Both the position numbers and the translations under genes were made by a program. A model generated the notes under the pieces. It ran no database searches, was not told where the DNA came from, and was given only the letters and a program-made list of their open reading frames with translations. From Anaerolineae bacterium (GTDB taxonomy: Bacteria > Chloroflexota > Anaerolineae > Anaerolineales > UBA11858), in NCBI GenBank assembly GCA_003694235.1, contig RFKO01000092.1, forward strand, positions 1 to 11,446: a DNA stretch of 11,446 nucleotides, given 5' to 3'. Within the stretch, counting starts at the first letter, position 1, and each line of letters opens with the position of its first letter. Of this stretch, positions 217 through 11,071 are shown piece by piece.

Positions 217-1947
217 ATGCTGACCGAACTGTACATCGAAAACTTTGCCATTATCGAGAAACTCCGCCTGCGCTTCCGGGACGGCCTGATCACCTTCACC
301 GGCGAGACCGGCGCGGGCAAGTCCATCATCATGGACGCGTTGAACACCTTGCTGGGCAGCCGCGCCGACACCACCTTCATTCGCAGCGGCGCGGATTACG
401 CCCTGATCGAGGCAACCTTCAAAATCCCCTCCGTTTCCCGCGAGGCCATTCACACCATCCTGGAAGCCGAAGCGCTGCTGGACGACCCCGATTACCTCAC
501 GTTGGGTCGCGAACTGCGGCGCGATAGCCGCAATGTGGTGCGCATCAACGGCCGCACTGCCAGCGTGAGCACGCTCCGCCAGCTGGGCGAGCACCTGGTG
601 GACATCCACGGCCAGTCCGAGCACCTCTCGCTGCTGCGCGAAAAAGAACACATCCACCTGCTCGACCGCTACGCCGACCTCAAAGCAGAACTGGAGGCTT
701 ATCGCCAGACTTACGCCAGCCTTCAGCGCACCCGGCAGGAACTGAGCCGCCTGCGCCAGAATGAACAGGAGGCTGCCCGCCGCGCCGACCTGTTGAGCTA
801 TCAAATCAACGAAATCCGCTCCGCCGCCCTGCAGGCGGATGAAGAAAAAGAACTGGAACAGGAACGCAACCGCCTGGCCAACGCCGAGAAGCTGGCCACG
901 CTGGGACAGAAAGCCCTGTTGTTGCTGGACGAGAGCACGCCAGACGAGCCTTCGATCATCGAGCGGCTGGGCGAGGTCAGCGCGGCGCTCGACCACCTGG
1001 CCGATGTTGACCGCTCCCAACGAGCGCTACACGAACAGGCCACAGCCACCCTCGAGGAACTCAGCGATCTCAGCCGCGCCCTGCGCCTGTACCTGGAAAA
1101 CATCGAGTTCAACCCCCAACGACTGGATCAGGTAGAAGAGCGTCTGGAACTGATCGCCAACCTGAAACGCAAATACGGCCCCGATATCCCCGCCATCCTG
1201 CAATTCGCCGAGAACGCCCAACAGCAGCTGGACGAGATCACCCACGCCGAGGAACGCATCGCCCAACTGGAGGAGAAAGAACGCACGCTGCTCGCCCGGC
1301 TGAGCGAGCAGGCGCTCGCCCTCTCTAAGAAGCGTCACCAGGCGGCCGAGATGCTCCAGCAGGCCATCGAAGGCGAACTGAACGACCTGCGCATGAGCGG
1401 CGCCCGCTTCCAGGTGGCTTTCACCACCGAAGAAGACCCTGACGGCCTGCAACTGCCGGATGGACGCCGCGTCGCCTTCTCCGCCGATGGGCATGAGCGC
1501 ATCACCTTCTTGATCGAAACCAACCCCGGCGAGGGCTTCAAGCCGCTGGCCAGGGTGGCCTCCGGCGGAGAGACATCCCGCCTGATGCTGGCGATGAAGA
1601 ACGTGCTGGCGCGCGTGGATCACATCCCCACCCTGGTATTCGACGAAATTGACCAGGGGATCGGCGGGCGCGTCGGGTTCATTGTGGGGCACAAACTCTG
1701 GCAACTTTCGACCAACCATCAGGTGTTGTGCATCACCCATCTGCCGCAACTGGCCGCCTTTGGCAAACAGCATTTTCGCGTGCAAAAATTCATCACAGGG
1801 GGACGCACCATTACCCAGGCGGAGGAAATCCAGGGCGAAAACCGCCTGCGCGAACTGGCGCAAATGCTGGGCGAGATCTCCGAAGGCACGCTGAACTCGG
1901 CGCGCGAGATTCTGAAAACCGCCGCCCAGGCCACCCAGAACGCCTGA
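217..1947 (+). CDS. recN: DNA repair protein RecN
   Basis: SMC-like ATPase that acts at DNA double-strand breaks in RecA-dependent recombinational repair, in the cytoplasm on the nucleoid. The 576 residues match the usual RecN length (about 550-580). The N-terminal half-ATPase starts with the family hallmark LTELYIENFAIIE and has Walker A GETGAGKS at residues 29-36. A long charged coiled-coil arm occupies roughly residues 150-385. The C-terminal half carries the ABC signature VASGGETSR (447-455), Walker B TLVFDEID (472-479, acidic pair D476/E477), GIGG directly after it, and the H-loop THLPQLAAFG. All ATPase motifs are intact. The ATG at 217 is chosen because the conserved N-terminus begins there. 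The ribosome-binding site is weak, and the gene starts 4 nt after the upstream stop, suggesting translational coupling. No LexA-type box is visible upstream, but the operon promoter lies outside the window. Confidence 0.97.
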   Translation: MLTELYIENFAIIEKLRLRFRDGLITFTGETGAGKSIIMDALNTLLGSRADTTFIRSGADYALIEATFKIPSVSREAIHTILEAEALLDDPDYLTLGRELRRDSRNVVRINGRTASVSTLRQLGEHLVDIHGQSEHLSLLREKEHIHLLDRYADLKAELEAYRQTYASLQRTRQELSRLRQNEQEAARRADLLSYQINEIRSAALQADEEKELEQERNRLANAEKLATLGQKALLLLDESTPDEPSIIERLGEVSAALDHLADVDRSQRALHEQATATLEELSDLSRALRLYLENIEFNPQRLDQVEERLELIANLKRKYGPDIPAILQFAENAQQQLDEITHAEERIAQLEEKERTLLARLSEQALALSKKRHQAAEMLQQAIEGELNDLRMSGARFQVAFTTEEDPDGLQLPDGRRVAFSADGHERITFLIETNPGEGFKPLARVASGGETSRLMLAMKNVLARVDHIPTLVFDEIDQGIGGRVGFIVGHKLWQLSTNHQVLCITHLPQLAAFGKQHFRVQKFITGGRTITQAEEIQGENRLRELAQMLGEISEGTLNSAREILKTAAQATQNA

Positions 1948-2085: not shown

Positions 2086-5000
2086 ATGACACGCCTCAAC
2101 GTCCTCCTGCTCGGCCCGCCCGAAGTCCTCTGGGGGAATACGCCTGTAAACGTTAAGCGCCGCACGCCGCGGGCGCTTTTATACTTTATCGCCTCGCAGG
2201 GGAAACCGGTTGCCCGCGAAGAACTGCTGGAAGCGTTTTGGGGAGAAGTATCGGAAGACAGCCGCTCCCAGCTCCGGGTAGCGCTCAGCCGCCTGCGCAG
2301 CGACTTACCTGACGCCGATCTGCTGATCACCCAATCCAACTGGATAAAACTCGATCCCGACCGCGTGTGGGTGGATCAGCACCACTTCGAGCAATTGATT
2401 CAACAGGCCGGGAAACTGATCTGGCGGCTCAAACTGACCGAACCGCTCCCGCCTCATCAAGCCGATTTGCTGGCGCAGGCCGCTGCCTTGTGGCGAGGCG
2501 ACATGTTCCTCTCTCACGCCTCGATACCCGGCACGCCTTACCTGGATCACTGGTTGACCGAGACCAACCAGCATCTCTCACGGCTGCGTGAGAGCATTCT
2601 GGAGCGCCTGGCCGGCCATGCCTACGCCTGCTCGGAATGGGAAGAGGCCCTGCAGTATGCCCGTGCTGCCCTGCGCCTCGACCCCTTCAACAACCGCCTG
2701 CACCATCTGGCACTCAAGTCGCTTGCCGAAATGGGGCGCATACAACAGGTGCAGGAATACTACCACCAACTGAAAGAGCAATACCGCCAGGAATTGGGCA
2801 TCACCCCCGGTCGAAGGGTGCAGGAACTGGTTCAGGCAATTGAGCAGCAACGCCACCTGACTGCGCCGCAAACGCTGCCGGCCTGGAAAGTCCATCAGGC
2901 ATTTCAGGCCGGTTTTGTCGGCCGCGCCGGGGAGCGCGCCCTTATCAAAACCGCCATCGAACATCACCAGTCGGTGATTGTGTTGGGCGAATCGGGAGCA
3001 GGGAAAACCCGCCTGCTGCAACACATCACCAACAGCGCCCAATCCTACATGCGCGTGCTGGTAACCACCTGCAAGCCGCTGGAAGCCACAATCCCACTGC
3101 AACCCCTGAGCGATGTTTTACGCAGCGCGCTCCACAGAAACCACTGGATCAACATCCCCACTTCCTGGCTGACCGTACTGGTTCATCTGATCCCCGAGGC
3201 GAGGGAATTCTTGCATAGAGAAAAACCCGCCCTGCTGCCAACCGATCCCTCTCAGGCCAGCAGTCTGCTGATGGAAGCCATCCGCCAGGCATTCCTCGTC
3301 CTCAGCCAGGAAATCCCCCTCTGGCTGGTACTCGACGATGCCCAATGGGCCGATGAGGCCACGCTGAACACCCTGGCCTACCTGGCCGCCCGTCCGCCCT
3401 TCCGGGGAGAATCCAATCTCACCGTGCTGGCGCGCAACGAAGAACTGCCCCCCTACGCCGCTCGCTGGTTGGAAGCCATGCGTCAATCCGGCGAAAGTCT
3501 GATCCTCCACCTGTCCGGGCTTGCCGAACAGGAGACGCGCGATTTGATCAGCGACGTGCTCGGCATTCTGCCTTCGCCGCGTTTCGTTCAGAGGCTGCAT
3601 CGGTTCACCGGCGGAAATCCCCTCTTCATCCTCGAAGTGCTGGAATCGTTGGCGCGCGCGGAAGAAGAGGTTGATTTTTCGGGCGAAAAGCCGCTTCCCT
3701 TGAGCGAAGACCTGCGCTACCTGCTCCAGGCGCGCATCCGCCAGGTCTCACCCGCGGCGCGAGAAGCGCTGAACGCCGCCGCCGTCATCGGAACACGCTT
3801 TTCGCTTTCATCTCTCCGACACACCAGCCGTCTGGACACCAACACACTACCGGCAGCCCTCGCGGAACTGGAAAACCGCGGGCTGGTGCGCGCCGAATCC
3901 CACGCCGATGGGGACGCGCAATACACTTTCGTACACGACAGCATCAAAGAGGTGACCGAGCAGAGCATTCCCGCCGACGAAGCTTGCAAATATCATCTGC
4001 GCGTGGCTCAGTATCTGGAGGAAAACCAGCCCGCCACGGCCGCCAACCTGCTGGCCGCCCACTACCAGGCCGCCGGCGACATCCCCTCGGCATTCCTGTA
4101 CTGGTTGAAAGCCGGCGACGCAGCCGTCGGGCTTGCCGCCTTCCCAGAAGCCCGACGCGCCTACCAACGCGCCCGCGCCTTGCTCGACCATCCGGAGGCA
4201 CAAAAGATTCCCATCGAAACGATTCTCCGCCTGTTCAAGCACTGGAATGAAATCCTGTACAACGTCAACGACACCGCCGGCCTGCTGGAACTGGGGAACG
4301 ATGCGATCTCGCTGGGACAGCGGCGCAACAGCGAGGCGCTGCTCGGCGTCGGGCACGACATTCTCAGCGATGCTGCCTTCACCCGCAACGATTTCCCGCG
4401 CGGCTTGGAAGAAACCGAGGCAGCCATCCACTACCTGCAGGAGACGGACTGCCGTGACATGCTGATCGAAGCCTACAACCACCACAGTGTGTTCCTGTAC
4501 ATGAGCGGTCGCATACCCGAGGCTGTCAGCATTCTGGAAGAGGCGCTCAGCCTGGAGCACGATATCCAGTCCCGCGAGGGATTCCGTTACCGCAGCCATA
4601 CGCATTATCAACTTGCCTTGATGCGCTGTTTCCAGGGCCAACCGGCCCAGGGCAGTTATCACGCCCGCATGGCCATTGAAGATGCCGAGGCCATCTCTTC
4701 CGCGACCGCCCTGACCACAGGGCACAGCATCGCCGCGCTGGCGCTTCAATATCTGGGCGAATACGCGGCCGCTCTGAGGCACGCCCTGCGCAGCATCGAA
4801 CTGGGCGAGCAAAGCCGCGGCGTGCGCATGCTGGGATACACTTATGCCTACGCGGCCATGAGCGCGCTAGGGTTGGGGAGGATAGAGGCCGCCCTGGCGT
4901 ACGCCCGTCAGGCGCAACACATCGGCGAGAAACACGGCTACGCCGATGTCTACGCGCTGGGGTGCAGCCAGGCCGGCAGCGTGTACAGCCGCCTCGGCAT

Positions 5001-5601
5001 GCTCGCCCGCGCCAGAGAAATCTTCGAGAGCGGCTTCCAGAAAGCCAGTGAGCATTTTTCCGGCGTGTACAACCTGTTCCTGCTCGGCGGGGTGCTGTAT
5101 CGCCTGGGCGAGGTGGACACCGGTTTATCCCTGCTGGCCCAGGCAGAGCAGGGGATGGCCTCCTTCGGTATTGAGCTGGGCGCCTTCCTGGCCCGCTCAG
5201 TGCGCGCCGCCGCCCTGGCTGCCGGCAGAGATTGGGAGCAAGCCGAACCCCAGGCCAGAGAAGTGCTGGCACAGGCGGAAAAGACCGCCATGAGACCCCA
5301 AAGCTGCCTGGCGCACAACATCCTGGCCGGCGCAGCGCGGGCGCGCGGAGACGACCATCTCAGCCGAATACACAGCCATAAAGCCCTTGCCTTCGCCCGG
5401 CAAATGGATTCCCCCTGGGGTGAAATCGAGGCCCTTTCCACGCTGCTGGTTCTCGACGCCGACAACCCGGCCGCTCGCAGGCTGCACCAGGAGCAACTGA
5501 ATCAAATCTACCACCGCTTACGCAGCCAGATACACACCCCCGAACTGCAAAACGCCTTTCACAACTGGTGGGAGACCCTCTCGTCCCGGCTGAACTGCTG
5601 A
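2086..5601 (+). CDS. Large SARP-type regulator: winged helix, BTAD, AAA ATPase, TPR
   Basis: Cytoplasmic transcriptional activator of 1171 residues. Residues about 1-95 form an OmpR/PhoB-type winged-helix DNA-binding domain (start MTRLNVLLLGPPEV, then PRALLYFIA and the recognition-helix region SQLRVALSRLRSDL). Residues about 97-255 are a bacterial transcriptional activator domain (BTAD) ending in the typical ELGITPGRRVQEL. A STAND/AAA ATPase follows FVGRAGER, with Walker A GESGAGKT (301-308) and Walker B LWLVLDDAQWAD (412-423, D417/D418). From about residue 640 the protein is Ala/Leu-rich helical TPR repeats, a likely ligand- or partner-sensing platform as in MalT-like proteins. There is no C-terminal LuxR helix-turn-helix, so DNA binding must come from the N-terminus. 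The ATG lacks a Shine-Dalgarno. It is chosen because the family N-terminus begins here and an in-frame TGA lies at 2059. Target genes and inducer cannot be read from the sequence. Confidence 0.9.
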   Translation: MTRLNVLLLGPPEVLWGNTPVNVKRRTPRALLYFIASQGKPVAREELLEAFWGEVSEDSRSQLRVALSRLRSDLPDADLLITQSNWIKLDPDRVWVDQHHFEQLIQQAGKLIWRLKLTEPLPPHQADLLAQAAALWRGDMFLSHASIPGTPYLDHWLTETNQHLSRLRESILERLAGHAYACSEWEEALQYARAALRLDPFNNRLHHLALKSLAEMGRIQQVQEYYHQLKEQYRQELGITPGRRVQELVQAIEQQRHLTAPQTLPAWKVHQAFQAGFVGRAGERALIKTAIEHHQSVIVLGESGAGKTRLLQHITNSAQSYMRVLVTTCKPLEATIPLQPLSDVLRSALHRNHWINIPTSWLTVLVHLIPEAREFLHREKPALLPTDPSQASSLLMEAIRQAFLVLSQEIPLWLVLDDAQWADEATLNTLAYLAARPPFRGESNLTVLARNEELPPYAARWLEAMRQSGESLILHLSGLAEQETRDLISDVLGILPSPRFVQRLHRFTGGNPLFILEVLESLARAEEEVDFSGEKPLPLSEDLRYLLQARIRQVSPAAREALNAAAVIGTRFSLSSLRHTSRLDTNTLPAALAELENRGLVRAESHADGDAQYTFVHDSIKEVTEQSIPADEACKYHLRVAQYLEENQPATAANLLAAHYQAAGDIPSAFLYWLKAGDAAVGLAAFPEARRAYQRARALLDHPEAQKIPIETILRLFKHWNEILYNVNDTAGLLELGNDAISLGQRRNSEALLGVGHDILSDAAFTRNDFPRGLEETEAAIHYLQETDCRDMLIEAYNHHSVFLYMSGRIPEAVSILEEALSLEHDIQSREGFRYRSHTHYQLALMRCFQGQPAQGSYHARMAIEDAEAISSATALTTGHSIAALALQYLGEYAAALRHALRSIELGEQSRGVRMLGYTYAYAAMSALGLGRIEAALAYARQAQHIGEKHGYADVYALGCSQAGSVYSRLGMLARAREIFESGFQKASEHFSGVYNLFLLGGVLYRLGEVDTGLSLLAQAEQGMASFGIELGAFLARSVRAAALAAGRDWEQAEPQAREVLAQAEKTAMRPQSCLAHNILAGAARARGDDHLSRIHSHKALAFARQMDSPWGEIEALSTLLVLDADNPAARRLHQEQLNQIYHRLRSQIHTPELQNAFHNWWETLSSRLNC

Positions 5602-6010: not shown

Positions 6011-8859
6011 TGCCCTCCGCTCCGCAAATCATCGCAGCACGGCGTACGCGTCAGCAGAAGCAACAACACCCCTGGCTGCAGGGCAGCGTGCTCACGTTGC
6101 TGGTATTGACCATTGTGCTGATGGTCATCGCCCTGTTGCTCTCCACGCTGGCGTACACCATCCTGCTGAAAGACCTCCCCGCCCCCGAAGCCCTGAGCAG
6201 CCTGCTCGATCCACCTCACGGCGTGCTGCTCCACCCCACACGCTTCCTCGATCGCAGCGGACAACACGTCCTGCTCAGGCTGGAAAACCCCGCCGTTCAG
6301 GAGCGCGTCTCCCTCTCGTACGACGAGATTCCGACAGACCTCGCTAACGCCTTCATCGCCGCGCTGGACCCCACCTTCTGGACACACCCGGGCTTTCACA
6401 ATCTAAGCACCTCGCCCAGCCGGTACACGCTGGCCGAGCAACTGGTCAGAGATTTGTTGCTCTGGGATGAACCGGACGGCACGGCGAAACTATGGCGTCA
6501 ACGCCTGCTGGCCGCGCAGATCACCCACCGCTATGGACGCGAGAAAGTGCTCCAATGGTATCTCAACAGCGCATACTTCGGCGAGGACCTGTACGGCGTA
6601 GCCCAGGCCGCGGAGGCCTATTTTGGCAAGCCGGTGTCAAAACTTTCCTTGCTGGAAGCCGCCTCGCTGGCTGCAGTCGCCGAAGCGCCGGCCATCAACC
6701 CGCACAACGCCCCCAACGAAGTCGGTCGGCGCGCCCTGGAGGTGGTGGATGCCATGCTGGCGCAAGGCCTGATCACCGCTCAGCAAGCGCGCGCCGCGCG
6801 TCGTTCCACGCTGGAAATCCAGCCCCCACAAACAGCCGATCCCCCCATCGCCGACGCCTATCTCGACCTGGTCTGGGAACAACTGGCCCAAATCATTCCG
6901 CCCGAACGTCTGCGCCGCGGCGGCTTTGACATCCTCACCTCACTGGACTTCGAATTACAACAACAGGTGCGCTGTACCCGCCAGATTTTCCTGGCACAGG
7001 AAACGGGCGACAGCCCACCCGCGGAGGAATGTGCCCCCGCGCGTCTGCTGCCCACCCCTGGCGGCCAGACGCGCTTCCCTGCCGGCAGTCTCCAGGCCGC
7101 CGTTCTGATTCTCGACCCCGCCACCGGACAGGTGCTGGCCATGGACGCGGATTCCCCGCTGCCTTTCCAGAATCCGCGCCCCACCGGTTCGTTGCTCACG
7201 CCATTTCTCTATCTGACCGCCTTCACCCGCGGCTTCAACCCTGCCACGCTGTTGTGGGACATCCCAGGGCTGTATCCTGAGGAAATCTCGCGGATGGCCA
7301 ACCCGCAGGCGGACTTCCTCGGCCCAATGCGTTTGCGCACCGCCCTGGCCACCGATGCGCTGATACCCGCTCTGAACGTGCTGGAACGCGTCGGGGCGCT
7401 CAACTTCTGGCGCACGCTGGAACGCTTCGGCATCACCCTGCCGCGCCCGCCGCAAGATGTCACGGCAGCCTGCGCCGGCTGTGCCTGGTTTCTGGAGGAG
7501 GGAGAAAGCACGCTCACCGACGCCGTCAGCGCGTATGCCGCGCTGGCCAACCGGGGCAGCTTCGCCGGAGACATCGAAGCGGAAGGGGAAAGCACCGCCT
7601 TCTCGCCGGTAACGCTGCTCGCTATCCGCGGGGTGGATGGGGCGCGCTGGTATGAACGCACTGCCAGCGATGTTCTCCCGATTACCAGCGAACAACTGGC
7701 CTACCTGATCAACCACATGCTGAGCGACGAGGCAGCCCGCTGGCCTCGCCTGGGACATCCCAATTTACTGGAGATCGGGCGCCCTGTGGCGGTCAAGACC
7801 GGCGCCACCGTCACGGGGCGCGACGCGTGGGCCATCGGTTATACCTCCCAACTGGTCGTGGGGGTGTGGGTCGGCGCGCCAGAGGAGGCAGAACTGCCCG
7901 CCCCCTTGAGCTATAGAGACGCCGCCGGTCTGTGGCGGGCGTTGAGCCAGTACGCCCTGCGCGATCTGCCATCCATCACCTGGGAGGCCCCGCCGGGCAT
8001 CAGCATTCTGCAGGTGTGCGACCCCTCCGGGCTGCTCCCCGGCGAGGATTGCCCCAGCATCGTGAGCGAAGTCTTTCTCAGCGGCCACGAACCCACCCAG
8101 ATGGACACCTTGTTCCGCCGTTTCCAAATCAATCGCGAGACCGGCCGGCTGGCGACGGTGTTCACGCCCCCTGAGCTGATCGAAGAGCGCGTCTACATGA
8201 TGGTCCCCCCCGAGGCGCGGGAATGGGCGCGGCAGGCCGGCATCACGCTCCCGCCTCAGGCTTACGACGTGATCTATATGCCCACGCCGTCACCCACAGC
8301 AGTTATCCAATCCCCGCAGATTTTCTCATCCCTGCGAGGGGAAGTCGAGATTCGCGGCACAGCAGCGGGAGAAGACTTTGTCTCTTATCGCCTGCAGATC
8401 GGCGAGGGGGTCAACCCCCAAAGCTGGCTGGCGCTGGGCGAAACCTCCACCACCCCGGTGAGGGACGGCCTGCTGGGACGCTGGGATACAAGCGGTCTGA
8501 ACGGCCTGTATGCCCTGCAACTCATTGTGCTGCGTCAGGATCAGCGCGTGGATACGCACACCATCCAGGTCACCGTGGACAACCTGCCCCCCGAAGTCAC
8601 GGTACGCTACCCGGAAGACGGCGCAACGCTGGAATATTCTCCCGCCACCCCGCTCACTTTCCAGGTACAGGCAGAAGACAATCTGGGGCTGCGCGAAATC
8701 CGCTATGCCCTGGATGGCGAAACGCTGGAAACCCAAACGCAACCACCGTTCGCCTACCCCTGGTCGCCCCGCCTGGGCGATCACACCCTGACCATCACGG
8801 CGATTGATCTGGCCGGGAACATGGCGAGACAAAGCATCACGTTTTCCATCACCCCCTGA
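6010..8859 (+). CDS. PBP1C-like class A penicillin-binding protein with degenerate active sites and Ig modules
   Basis: 949 residues. A basic N-terminus and one membrane segment (about 26-54) anchor the protein, with the rest outside. A GT51 peptidoglycan transglycosylase domain (about 80-300) keeps YLNSAYFG and YFGKPVSKLSLLEAA. However, the usual EDxxFxxHxG reads LDPTFWTHPG (L119 at the catalytic Glu), GGSTITQQL reads SRYTLAEQL, and motif 3 has Q164 for the second Glu. The transpeptidase domain (about 355-645) has SLLT (S394, T397) instead of SxxK and DAL (449-451) instead of SxN, while KTG (596-598) is intact. A PBP1C-like tail with VCDPSG..PGEDC (C670, C681) follows, then two Ig-like modules (about 768-857 and 858-949). 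Family membership is clear, but catalysis by either domain is doubtful. The reading frame is uninterrupted, so it is not a decayed pseudogene. It may be a structural or regulatory cell-wall pseudoenzyme. Confidence 0.88.
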   Translation: MPSAPQIIAARRTRQQKQQHPWLQGSVLTLLVLTIVLMVIALLLSTLAYTILLKDLPAPEALSSLLDPPHGVLLHPTRFLDRSGQHVLLRLENPAVQERVSLSYDEIPTDLANAFIAALDPTFWTHPGFHNLSTSPSRYTLAEQLVRDLLLWDEPDGTAKLWRQRLLAAQITHRYGREKVLQWYLNSAYFGEDLYGVAQAAEAYFGKPVSKLSLLEAASLAAVAEAPAINPHNAPNEVGRRALEVVDAMLAQGLITAQQARAARRSTLEIQPPQTADPPIADAYLDLVWEQLAQIIPPERLRRGGFDILTSLDFELQQQVRCTRQIFLAQETGDSPPAEECAPARLLPTPGGQTRFPAGSLQAAVLILDPATGQVLAMDADSPLPFQNPRPTGSLLTPFLYLTAFTRGFNPATLLWDIPGLYPEEISRMANPQADFLGPMRLRTALATDALIPALNVLERVGALNFWRTLERFGITLPRPPQDVTAACAGCAWFLEEGESTLTDAVSAYAALANRGSFAGDIEAEGESTAFSPVTLLAIRGVDGARWYERTASDVLPITSEQLAYLINHMLSDEAARWPRLGHPNLLEIGRPVAVKTGATVTGRDAWAIGYTSQLVVGVWVGAPEEAELPAPLSYRDAAGLWRALSQYALRDLPSITWEAPPGISILQVCDPSGLLPGEDCPSIVSEVFLSGHEPTQMDTLFRRFQINRETGRLATVFTPPELIEERVYMMVPPEAREWARQAGITLPPQAYDVIYMPTPSPTAVIQSPQIFSSLRGEVEIRGTAAGEDFVSYRLQIGEGVNPQSWLALGETSTTPVRDGLLGRWDTSGLNGLYALQLIVLRQDQRVDTHTIQVTVDNLPPEVTVRYPEDGATLEYSPATPLTFQVQAEDNLGLREIRYALDGETLETQTQPPFAYPWSPRLGDHTLTITAIDLAGNMARQSITFSITP

Positions 8860-9103: not shown

Positions 9104-10879
9104 CTATGGCTGGTCGATCGTGATGTATTCAAACTGCAGAATGACCGGCAGCACATCGAACGAAGAGACGCCGATACCCACCTTCCCCTCTTTGAAGCCA
9201 TAGGTCTTATCGGTGTACGTCTTGATGAACTGACCGTTGATGTACATCGTGATCGTGCTACCGTCACACATCAACGAATAACGGTTGGTATCCTTACCCA
9301 TGCGAACAGCCGTCGAGCCGCCGTTGGTCAGCATATTGTATTTGTCGGTACGACCATTGTATGCCCACAGCCACCATAGACCGTTGTTGGCCACGCTGAA
9401 CTCATACCAGCCATCTTCCGATGCCTGACACACCAGGCCGACATTGTTGTTATTTTTGCCGCGATTCTCCGCCTGGGTATCGAGCAGCACCGATGAGTAA
9501 ATATACGGATCATAGAAAAAATAGGTGTAGAGATTCTGACCGTTCAACTCGAAGACCAGTTTTCCGTTGTCCGTATACAAATTGAACAGGTTTTTATCAC
9601 CGCGGGTGGTCATCCACCACCAGTTCGTCGGCGTCTCGTCGAACTCTTCGGTGAAGAAAGCCGGCGCTTCGCCGCTGGCCTGACCACCGGTCTGATCACT
9701 GCTCTGCCCGCCGCTGGACGTACCCGCCGACGCGCCTCCGCTCATATCGCCGCCGGACACCACTTCCAGCTTCTTTCCATTGATCTCACCGACCAGCTTT
9801 TCGCCAGTGGCGAAACGATAGACCTCCACACGTAGCACATCTCCCGCTTTGTGAGAGCGCAGCACGTCGCAATAGGCCGACATCGTGCCGTCACCACCCA
9901 TGGGGAGATCGGCCAGTTTGAGGATAATATCACCGCCCTGAATGCCGGCGTTGGAAGCCGGCGAGCCGGCCTCAACCGACTGCACCCAAATGCCCGATAC
10001 ACCCACATCCTCCACCACAAATGCCTCGCCACTGACGCCCAGGGTGTCCACGTCCTGTCCCCCCTTCAGTTGCTCGATGATCGGCTTGGCGACATCTCGC
10101 CCGATAGCGAAGAACTGGGTGGCCGCCGGCGCAGAGCCGGTGAAGGTGTTGATGCCCACCACTTTGCCATCCGGTGTGATCAACGGCCCGCCGGAATTGC
10201 CAGGGTTGATGCTGGCATCGTGCATCAAAACAGATTCAATCGAGGCCCAGGAGGTATTCCCACTGGCCTTTGCCTTGGAGACAATGCCTTTGGTGAGTGT
10301 GTACTCCGGGTCGAGCAGAGGGTACCCTGCCGCATAAACGTCCATACCCACGGTAATGTCGCCCTGGTACCATTCCAGATAAGGGAATCCCTCACCTTCG
10401 ATATCGATGACGGCCAGGTCGGAACACTCCGAAACAGCCACCACGCTGGCATTGTAACTCTTAGAATTATCCCCACCGACATAGACTTTGAGCAAAGAAG
10501 CGCCGGTAACCACGTGGTTATTGGTCACCGCCAGTCCGGAGGGATCGATGATGAAACCGGAGCCTCCCCACCCGGTTGTGGCCGGCCCCTCGCCCAGGGG
10601 GTAAAAAGTGCCCACAGCTTCGATCCGAATCACCGCCTGCTGGACATCCTGCAACGAAGACACTGCGCCCGTACCGGCGGCAGGCTGTGCCGGCTGGGCA
10701 GGCTGTGCCGGCTGGGCGGGCTGAGCGGGTTGGGCCGGCTGGGCAGGCTGCGCGGGTTGGGCCGGTTGAGCCGGCTGGGCTACCTCCTGCGTCGCCGAAG
10801 GACCGCACGCCAGGCCCACAGCCAAAACGAACAGAGCCGCGAACACCAACGGTTTTAGGAAAGCATATCTTGTTGTCAT
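9104..10879 (-). CDS. Secreted HtrA-type serine protease with PDZ and C-terminal LamG-like domain
   Basis: 591 residues. The signal peptide ends in AVGLAC (C25), a probable but non-ideal lipobox, so the protein is likely a surface lipoprotein. Residues 34-66 are eleven AQP repeats, a flexible spacer from the membrane. The chymotrypsin-fold HtrA/DegP-like protease (about 75-275) has an intact triad: H122 (TNNHVV), D154 (ECSDLAV) and S229 (NPGNSGGPL). One PDZ domain follows (about 281-375), then a Ser/Gly-rich linker (about 378-405). The C-terminal domain (about 408-591, EEFDETPTNWWW to YITID) resembles LamG/concanavalin-like folds, with two Cys in GLVCQ and SLMCD that might pair. The start is set at 10879 because AAGGAGGA lies 4 nt upstream. 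A 25-codon in-frame extension to 10954 lacks this support and would bury the signal peptide. Role inferred: proteolytic quality control or signalling at the cell surface, perhaps guided by glycan or protein binding. Confidence 0.92.
   Translation of the reverse strand: MTTRYAFLKPLVFAALFVLAVGLACGPSATQEVAQPAQPAQPAQPAQPAQPAQPAQPAQPAQPAQPAAGTGAVSSLQDVQQAVIRIEAVGTFYPLGEGPATTGWGGSGFIIDPSGLAVTNNHVVTGASLLKVYVGGDNSKSYNASVVAVSECSDLAVIDIEGEGFPYLEWYQGDITVGMDVYAAGYPLLDPEYTLTKGIVSKAKASGNTSWASIESVLMHDASINPGNSGGPLITPDGKVVGINTFTGSAPAATQFFAIGRDVAKPIIEQLKGGQDVDTLGVSGEAFVVEDVGVSGIWVQSVEAGSPASNAGIQGGDIILKLADLPMGGDGTMSAYCDVLRSHKAGDVLRVEVYRFATGEKLVGEINGKKLEVVSGGDMSGGASAGTSSGGQSSDQTGGQASGEAPAFFTEEFDETPTNWWWMTTRGDKNLFNLYTDNGKLVFELNGQNLYTYFFYDPYIYSSVLLDTQAENRGKNNNNVGLVCQASEDGWYEFSVANNGLWWLWAYNGRTDKYNMLTNGGSTAVRMGKDTNRYSLMCDGSTITMYINGQFIKTYTDKTYGFKEGKVGIGVSSFDVLPVILQFEYITIDQP
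10684..10782 (-). repeat. In-gene 9-bp tandem repeat encoding (AQP)11
   Basis: Eleven consecutive 9-bp units, each encoding Ala-Gln-Pro, lie just after the signal peptide of the protease. Units differ almost only at synonymous positions (GCC/GCT/GCG/GCA, CAG/CAA, CCG/CCC/CCT). The peptide is therefore perfectly repetitive while the DNA has diverged, which argues for selection on the spacer peptide rather than a fresh slippage expansion. Because the unit is a multiple of three, length changes keep the frame. Confidence 0.9.
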
Positions 10880-10883
10880 TTCT

Positions 10884-10891
10884 TCCTCCTT
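10884..10891 (-). promoter_or_regulatory. Strong Shine-Dalgarno fixing the protease start
   Basis: On the minus strand AAGGAGGA precedes AGAA-ATG, a near-perfect anti-16S match at ideal spacing. It decides the start at 10879 and contrasts with the plus-strand genes at 2086 and 6010, which have none. Confidence 0.85.
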
Positions 10892-11071
10892 GTAGAAACT
10901 CTTTCGAAACATAGAACTATTCAAAGTCATAGCACCGGCATTGACTGTGTTCATCCTTCAACACATGCCAACCCCAGGCGCAACGGGCGACTTTTTCCTC
11001 AGGCTCTCCGCGCAATCTGGGGCAGGGACACCACCTGTCACAGATACGTTCCGAGAAGCATACTCATTCTC

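Follow-up and report, generated by a model that had tools for sequence, protein, structure and literature searches.

What keeps a penicillin-binding protein (PBP) in a bacterial lineage once both of its active sites have lost their catalytic residues? The question is raised by a gene for a 949-amino-acid class A PBP-like protein in an 11,446-nucleotide stretch of Anaerolineae DNA (contig RFKO01000092.1 of assembly GCA_003694235.1, order Anaerolineales); this whole stretch is called the window below. As key residues of both active sites are lost, yet many related bacteria keep the gene under strong selection, the protein probably has a non-enzymatic role, for instance in keeping the active wall-building machinery in place or directing it. 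We consider it fairly likely that a bifunctional class A PBP has shed both catalytic centres here and been kept as a non-enzymatic envelope protein.

Both catalytic centres are degenerate in a class A PBP fold

A Pfam scan of the 949-residue protein returned Transgly (101.9 bits), Big_7 (43.1), BiPBP_C (36.5) and Transpeptidase (26.6). Transgly and Transpeptidase both exceed the Pfam gathering scores, which places a GT51 glycosyltransferase (GT) and a transpeptidase (TP) fold in one chain, with a predicted membrane anchor. The AlphaFold2 model is confident (mean pLDDT 89.9, pTM 0.76), and its top structural matches are class A PBPs. The sequence and the architecture known for class A PBPs suggest that the N-terminal helix lies in the membrane (Table 1). 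Within this fold, other residues occupy both catalytic glutamate positions of the GT domain as well as the lysine of SxxK and the asparagine of SxN, the latter motif reading D449-A-L451, and the loop preceding GT motif 2 is shorter than in intact relatives. The initial annotation, which had described a double pseudoenzyme with a retained KTG but neither SxxK lysine nor SxN, is thus borne out at the level of sequence, and catalysis in either domain appears unlikely. PBPs need the SxxK lysine, general background that lies outside the mutant data discussed below, and its loss would be expected to abolish acylation.

To place these losses, we relied on several sequence sets. A protein search identified 289 homologues among 7994 candidates scored, the best 120 of which form the homologue set, and a genome scan contributed the best 80 of 418 relatives as named loci. 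The order was sampled by 61 genomes, 60 drawn with a completeness of at least 90 plus the window's own. The named and genome-sample collections overlap, and removal of duplicates from 137 sequences left 125 distinct ones, all degenerate and from the order. Reading frames at the relatives' loci were chosen by BLAST; full-length open frames of the homologues are 40–61% identical to the window protein.

Neither a lysine at position 397 (SxxK) nor an asparagine at position 451 (SxN) was present in any of the best 120 homologues or the 125 distinct sequences, and both residues are missing from all 80 named loci. Position 397, which the initial annotation had singled out together with D449, is T or S in 104 of the best 120 (T 82, S 22, N 8, A 6, D 1, M 1), and D449 is found in 117 of these and in 108 of the 125. 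The first GT glutamate (position 119) persists in 1/120 and 2/125 sequences. The second, lost in the window protein, is retained in 63/125, and GT motif 4 is largely kept (W183 in 124/125, N186 in 123/125). The claim that KTG is kept holds for the window protein but not for the family: K596 (115/120 and 104/125) and G598 (109/125) are common, whereas the threonine at 597 occurs in 8/120 and 14/125 and is replaced by I, L or M in 98/120. S or T stands at position 394 in all best 120 homologues, all 80 named loci and 115 of the 125 distinct sequences (65 S, 50 T). Nine of the 125 (L168–L172, L180, L182, L183 and L208) have decayed further, with S/T394, D449 and the KTG lysine all lost; their frames still span 790–959 amino acids.

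Two cysteine pairs accompany the degenerate motifs. C322 and C341, in the linker between the GT and TP domains, are cysteines in 119 and 118 of the 125 distinct sequences and may form a disulfide; C670 and C681 are present in 125/125 as well as in 8/8 intact anchor sequences.

The titles of the 80 named loci give Chloroflexi/Chloroflexota, Anaerolineae and similar names, or genera that we take to belong to Chloroflexota. One record (L047) titled Arcobacter also carries the degenerate family and is likely a mislabelled or contaminated bin. Five strain-named, non-bin records carry the degenerate form (L039, L059, L063, L089 and L093), from Anaerolinea thermolimosa IMO-1, Levilinea saccharolytica KIBI-1, Ornatilinea apprima P3M-1, Bellilinea caldifistulae GOMI-1 and Longilinea arvoryzae KOME-1. 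These strains are presumably in culture, and such carriers make the degenerate form testable.

Canonical and intact PBPs in the same order

The degenerate form is found in 44 of the 61 order genomes, and its TP motifs are degenerate in 44/44, the G411 copy being a fragment. A long-frame GT51 gene scoring about 119 bits or less is present in 43 genomes besides one of at least 171 bits, and G411 adds one more; G398 was counted by a single copy, its other candidate (G398:C712) scoring 134 bits over a 564-amino-acid frame. A GT51 gene of at least 171 bits occurs in 61/61 genomes. The second, canonical class A PBP that the initial annotation had suggested seeking in the same genome was located there (C253), and 29 canonical loci (L135–L163) retain their motifs wherever these are covered, three loci being incomplete. 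Genomes with the degenerate form also encode an active-looking class A PBP.

A profile of the intact relatives (A2) detected a full copy of at least 1596 bits in 10/61 genomes, all with intact motifs. Among the matches listed for the 61 genomes, with at most 13 candidates scored in each, none showed the intact and the degenerate form side by side. Both cysteine pairs of the degenerate family recur in the 10 intact copies, in some of which the first pair is spaced differently. The remaining seven genomes (G399, G409, G415, G243, G263, G130 and G320) have neither form or a copy that is unclassifiable; G415:C249 is a C-terminal fragment. A putative second copy, G396:C354, proved to be an intact, canonical PBP of a different type. 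In one family of the order (L121–L134), the proteins are 826–924 amino acids long and end before the C-terminal Ig-like domain.

The initial annotation had named orthologues with SxxK and SxN as evidence that would speak against it. Intact relatives of this kind do exist, but their genomes are without the degenerate form. For this reason, and as the degenerate copies form a clade of their own, the intact relatives are evidence on when the loss occurred and not against the loss itself.

Constraint has weakened from the GT to the TP domain but not beyond

We calculated dN/dS (the ratio of non-synonymous to synonymous substitution rates) by the NG86 method for pairs with a BLAST identity of 70–98% over more than 600 residues. 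Degenerate pairs gave values of 0.059–0.295 with a median of about 0.13 (40 pairs, one of 41 dropped as saturated), and active pairs gave 0.054–0.279 (15 pairs, one of 16 dropped as saturated); pairs share members, some repeat one sequence from two collections, and values at dS >1 are rough. The degenerate form is under purifying selection.

Where this constraint acts was read from alignment columns in which one residue reaches at least 90%, comparing 15 intact rows with 72 degenerate rows (named loci of more than 900 amino acids plus the window protein; shorter rows were excluded). The GT domain has 71 such columns in the intact rows and 27 in the degenerate rows, the linker 25 and 12, and the TP domain 101 and 46. 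The counts are 34 and 34 in the post-TP region, 30 and 37 in the C-terminal region and 4 and 4 in the N-terminal region. Constraint has thus dropped from the GT domain through the linker to the TP domain, but the regions beyond have kept it. Other residues became newly fixed in the degenerate rows: D449, W416, P419 and Q170 (0.99 each), N448 (0.94; T in the window protein), R407 (0.92) and R441 (0.90). The dead pocket has gained fixed residues of its own in D449, W416, P419 and R441.

In active PBPs, the serine of SxN lies next to the lysine of KTG. In the degenerate sequences, D449 and a K, R or H at 596 occur together in 108/125 and are both absent in 17/125, with no mixed case. On a FastTree phylogeny each position changes four times, and three independent pairs change in the same direction (sign test, p 0.25). 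A salt bridge between D449 and K596 may close or lock the former active site.

Catalysis may have been lost more than once

Two trees were built: one of 68 rows (LG+G4) and one of 39 chosen rows (LG+C20 with posterior mean site frequencies, PMSF). In the 39-row tree, the 14 degenerate copies from the order fall into a single clade (ultrafast bootstrap, UFBoot, 100; SH-aLRT 99). The branch joining them to the intact order-level copies has 100/99, and the intact group alone is weak (79/61). Degenerate class A PBPs from other orders of the class (L101, L106, L110, L111 and L114) have different SxxK replacements, among them PGTALNPI, AGSMLRPY and PGPVLSPF, and are probably independent losses within the same subfamily. 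In the 39-row tree, L101 pairs with the intact L203 (100/100), and L106, L110 and L111 group with the intact L195 and L196 (100/97). Approximately unbiased (AU) tests reject a single clade of all 18 degenerate rows (p 5e-06) and a clade of the 14 order-level rows with L106, L110 and L111 (p 0.0013); these p-values presuppose groups named beforehand, and the 39 rows were picked after the first tree was seen. The 39-row tree omits L114 and the fastest-evolving L164–L172 and L181–L183, whose placement is less sure. On the strength of this tree and the AU tests, we rejected a common origin for every degenerate copy of the class, and at least three independent inactivations appear to be the best reading of the sequences.

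Genomic neighbourhood

Neighbour clusters were compared in the flanks of 81 loci (those of L015–L094 among them), many of which are short. The most recurrent are recN (28 of the 81), NAD kinase (26), a protein with a B-box-like zinc finger just below the Pfam cut-off (23) and an ECF sigma factor (20). Of the window's own neighbours, the trypsin/PDZ protease cluster recurs beside 15 loci and the 1171-amino-acid regulator beside 7. The recurrent clusters are absent beside 20 intact or other class-level copies (recN 0/20) in flanks of about 7–10 kb, some shorter.

Table 1. Positions of the PBP-like gene, its domains and motifs, and neighbouring genes in the window
Feature	Position	Strand	Basis or remark
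Class A PBP-like protein, predicted double pseudoenzyme, 949 amino acids	6010..8859	+	Pfam, AlphaFold2 model, structural matches
Predicted N-terminal membrane helix, residues 21–53	6070..6168	+	Helix in AlphaFold2 model
Degenerate GT51 glycosyltransferase domain, residues 95–249	6292..6756	+	Catalytic Glu positions are L119 (first) and Q164 (second)
GT motif 1, ALDPTFWTH, residues 118–126	6361..6387	+	Replaces xEDxxFxxx
GT motif 2, RYTLAEQLVRD, residues 138–148	6421..6453	+	Replaces GSTITQQLVKN
Cysteine pair C322/C341, GT–TP linker	6973..7032	+	Common to degenerate subfamily and intact relatives
Degenerate transpeptidase domain, residues 361–625	7090..7884	+	Pfam, model, structural matches
GSLLTPF at the SxxK position (S394, T397)	7186..7206	+	
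KTG, intact, residues 596–598	7795..7803	+	
Second cysteine pair C670/C681, post-transpeptidase domain	8017..8052	+	
C-terminal Ig-like domain (BiPBP_C/Big_7), residues 861–943	8590..8838	+	
RecN-like gene	217..1947	+	Context; recurrent upstream neighbour
Regulator, 1171 amino acids (Trans_reg_C, BTAD, AAA, TPR)	2086..5601	+	Between recN and the PBP gene
Trypsin/PDZ protease, (PAQ)n repeat near N terminus	9104..10954	-	

Discussion

How might a PBP without catalytic centres serve the cell? We suggest that an ancestral class A PBP lost its GT and TP catalytic residues while the anchor, the fold and the post-TP region were retained, and that D449 came to pair with K596, locking the former active site. 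Anchored in the membrane, the product would use its retained domains to dock on the canonical class A PBP, or on a different synthase complex, and would scaffold or regulate it, comparable to the action of inactive LytM proteins on hydrolases. A scaffold or regulator of active synthases, its putative partners, is the best-supported role. PBPs do act on each other, as PBP2 stimulates the GT activity of PBP1A (PMC4632607). More tentatively, and with rather less than even confidence, this subfamily of the Anaerolineae may have given rise, on three or more independent occasions, to a double pseudoenzyme that replaced its active version, a dedicated non-catalytic organiser of wall synthesis with its dead transpeptidase pocket rebuilt on D449 and K596 as a docking or locking site.

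Several observations weigh against this proposal. The degenerate form is not indispensable, as 7/61 genomes have no assignable form, and the terminal Ig-like domain is not essential everywhere, being absent in the L121–L134 family. The region common to all members reaches only to about residue 860, and rows of 900 amino acids or fewer were excluded from the column comparison. No wall gene is among the recurrent neighbours of the 81 loci, which thus offer no functional clue. S/T394 is kept in 115/125 sequences, and a purely dead pocket would need this residue only for structure, so that some room is left for rewired chemistry. The mutant evidence cited from PMC4632607 covers Ser and Glu, and S394 is present in the window protein. 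For D449 and K596, independent pairs are too few for significance. In the 68-row tree, L106, L110, L111 and L114 adjoin the order-level copies, and two changes suffice (one main loss plus L101), a simpler model that weighs against three inactivations. Finally, as intact copies are not near recN (0/20 loci), orthology of the intact and degenerate forms rests on the tree and on mutual exclusion, and ancient paralogy with differential loss may be an alternative.

Among rival explanations, a non-covalent sensor or decoy, whose grooves still bind glycan strands, lipid II or stem peptides to signal or to buffer, seems unlikely. W183 (124/125), N186 (123/125), K596 (104/125) and G598 (109/125) are kept, and so is the fold in the model. 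However, the residues lost are those of GT motifs 1–3, which are catalytic and donor-site residues, and the Pfam scan of the window protein gave no signalling domain.

A rewired TP pocket, with S/T394 as nucleophile and D449 plus K596 in place of the SxxK lysine, is improbable. It would account for the invariance of S or T at 394 in the best 120 homologues and 80 named loci, for the conserved, co-occurring D449 and K596, and for newly fixed positions (407, 414, 416, 419, 441, 448 and 449) that lie near the motifs in sequence. Yet S/T394 is lost in 10/125 sequences, D449 plus K596 in 17/125 and all three in 9/125 while the proteins stay full length. Position 394 also alternates between serine and threonine (65 and 50 of 125), which would not be expected of a nucleophile; in the model a helix begins at residue 393, and S and T are common helix N-caps.

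We regard a weakly active enzyme, for example a GT using its second glutamate alone or a slow carboxypeptidase, as very improbable. The second GT glutamate is kept in 63/125 sequences, and the window protein has KTG and S394, but it is without both GT glutamates and the SxxK lysine. According to a review (PMC4632607), single substitutions suffice to cost Escherichia coli PBP1A and PBP1B their activities: mutation of the catalytic serine inactivates the transpeptidase, and mutation of the GT glutamate abolishes or strongly lowers transpeptidation but leaves beta-lactam binding in place. A decaying pseudogene or neutral relic, to which the motif loss in both domains and the 7/61 genomes without an assignable form might point, is scarcely credible and was rejected on the full-length open frames at 40–61% identity, dN/dS far below 1 in 40/40 measurable pairs and the undiminished constraint behind the TP domain.

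Class A PBPs are textbook enzymes and drug targets, and a conserved non-catalytic form would separate their scaffold from their enzyme roles. Repeated losses, if they hold, are natural replicates for which surfaces matter without catalysis. The source names of relatives include membrane carboxypeptidase/penicillin-binding protein, and such names would mislead counts of wall synthases.

Compared with bifunctional class A PBPs (PBP1A, PBP1B and Staphylococcus aureus PBP2) and with the intact sister subfamily, the degenerate form is without catalytic GT glutamates, SxxK lysine and SxN and has a new conserved D449. It resembles PBP1C (TIGR02073) in its BiPBP_C domain, but the 'PBP1C type' label of the initial annotation had to be dropped: the window protein scores 204 bits against a curated NCBIfam cut-off of 494.2, and PBP1C differs in having the SxxK lysine and GT glutamates that are missing here. 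The PBP1A family (TIGR02074) cut-off of 508.75 is likewise above both the window protein (254.3 bits) and the intact relative L184 (480.6). A literature search over open-licence PMC papers turned up neither an inactive class A PBP from Chloroflexota nor a doubly inactive one from any other source. The closest parallel in kind is offered by pseudoenzyme wall regulators, with which the degenerate form shares lost catalytic residues, a fold kept in the model and purifying selection. In DipM (PMC10336132), EnvC and NlpD, a wall-enzyme fold has lost catalysis and controls other wall enzymes, inactive LytM proteins regulating hydrolases; these differ in their unrelated fold, their hydrolase targets and their experimentally shown binding. 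An inactive wall enzyme turned regulator is thus a kind known from LytM proteins (PMC10336132), within which a class A PBP that is doubly inactive and distributed in this way appears to be new.
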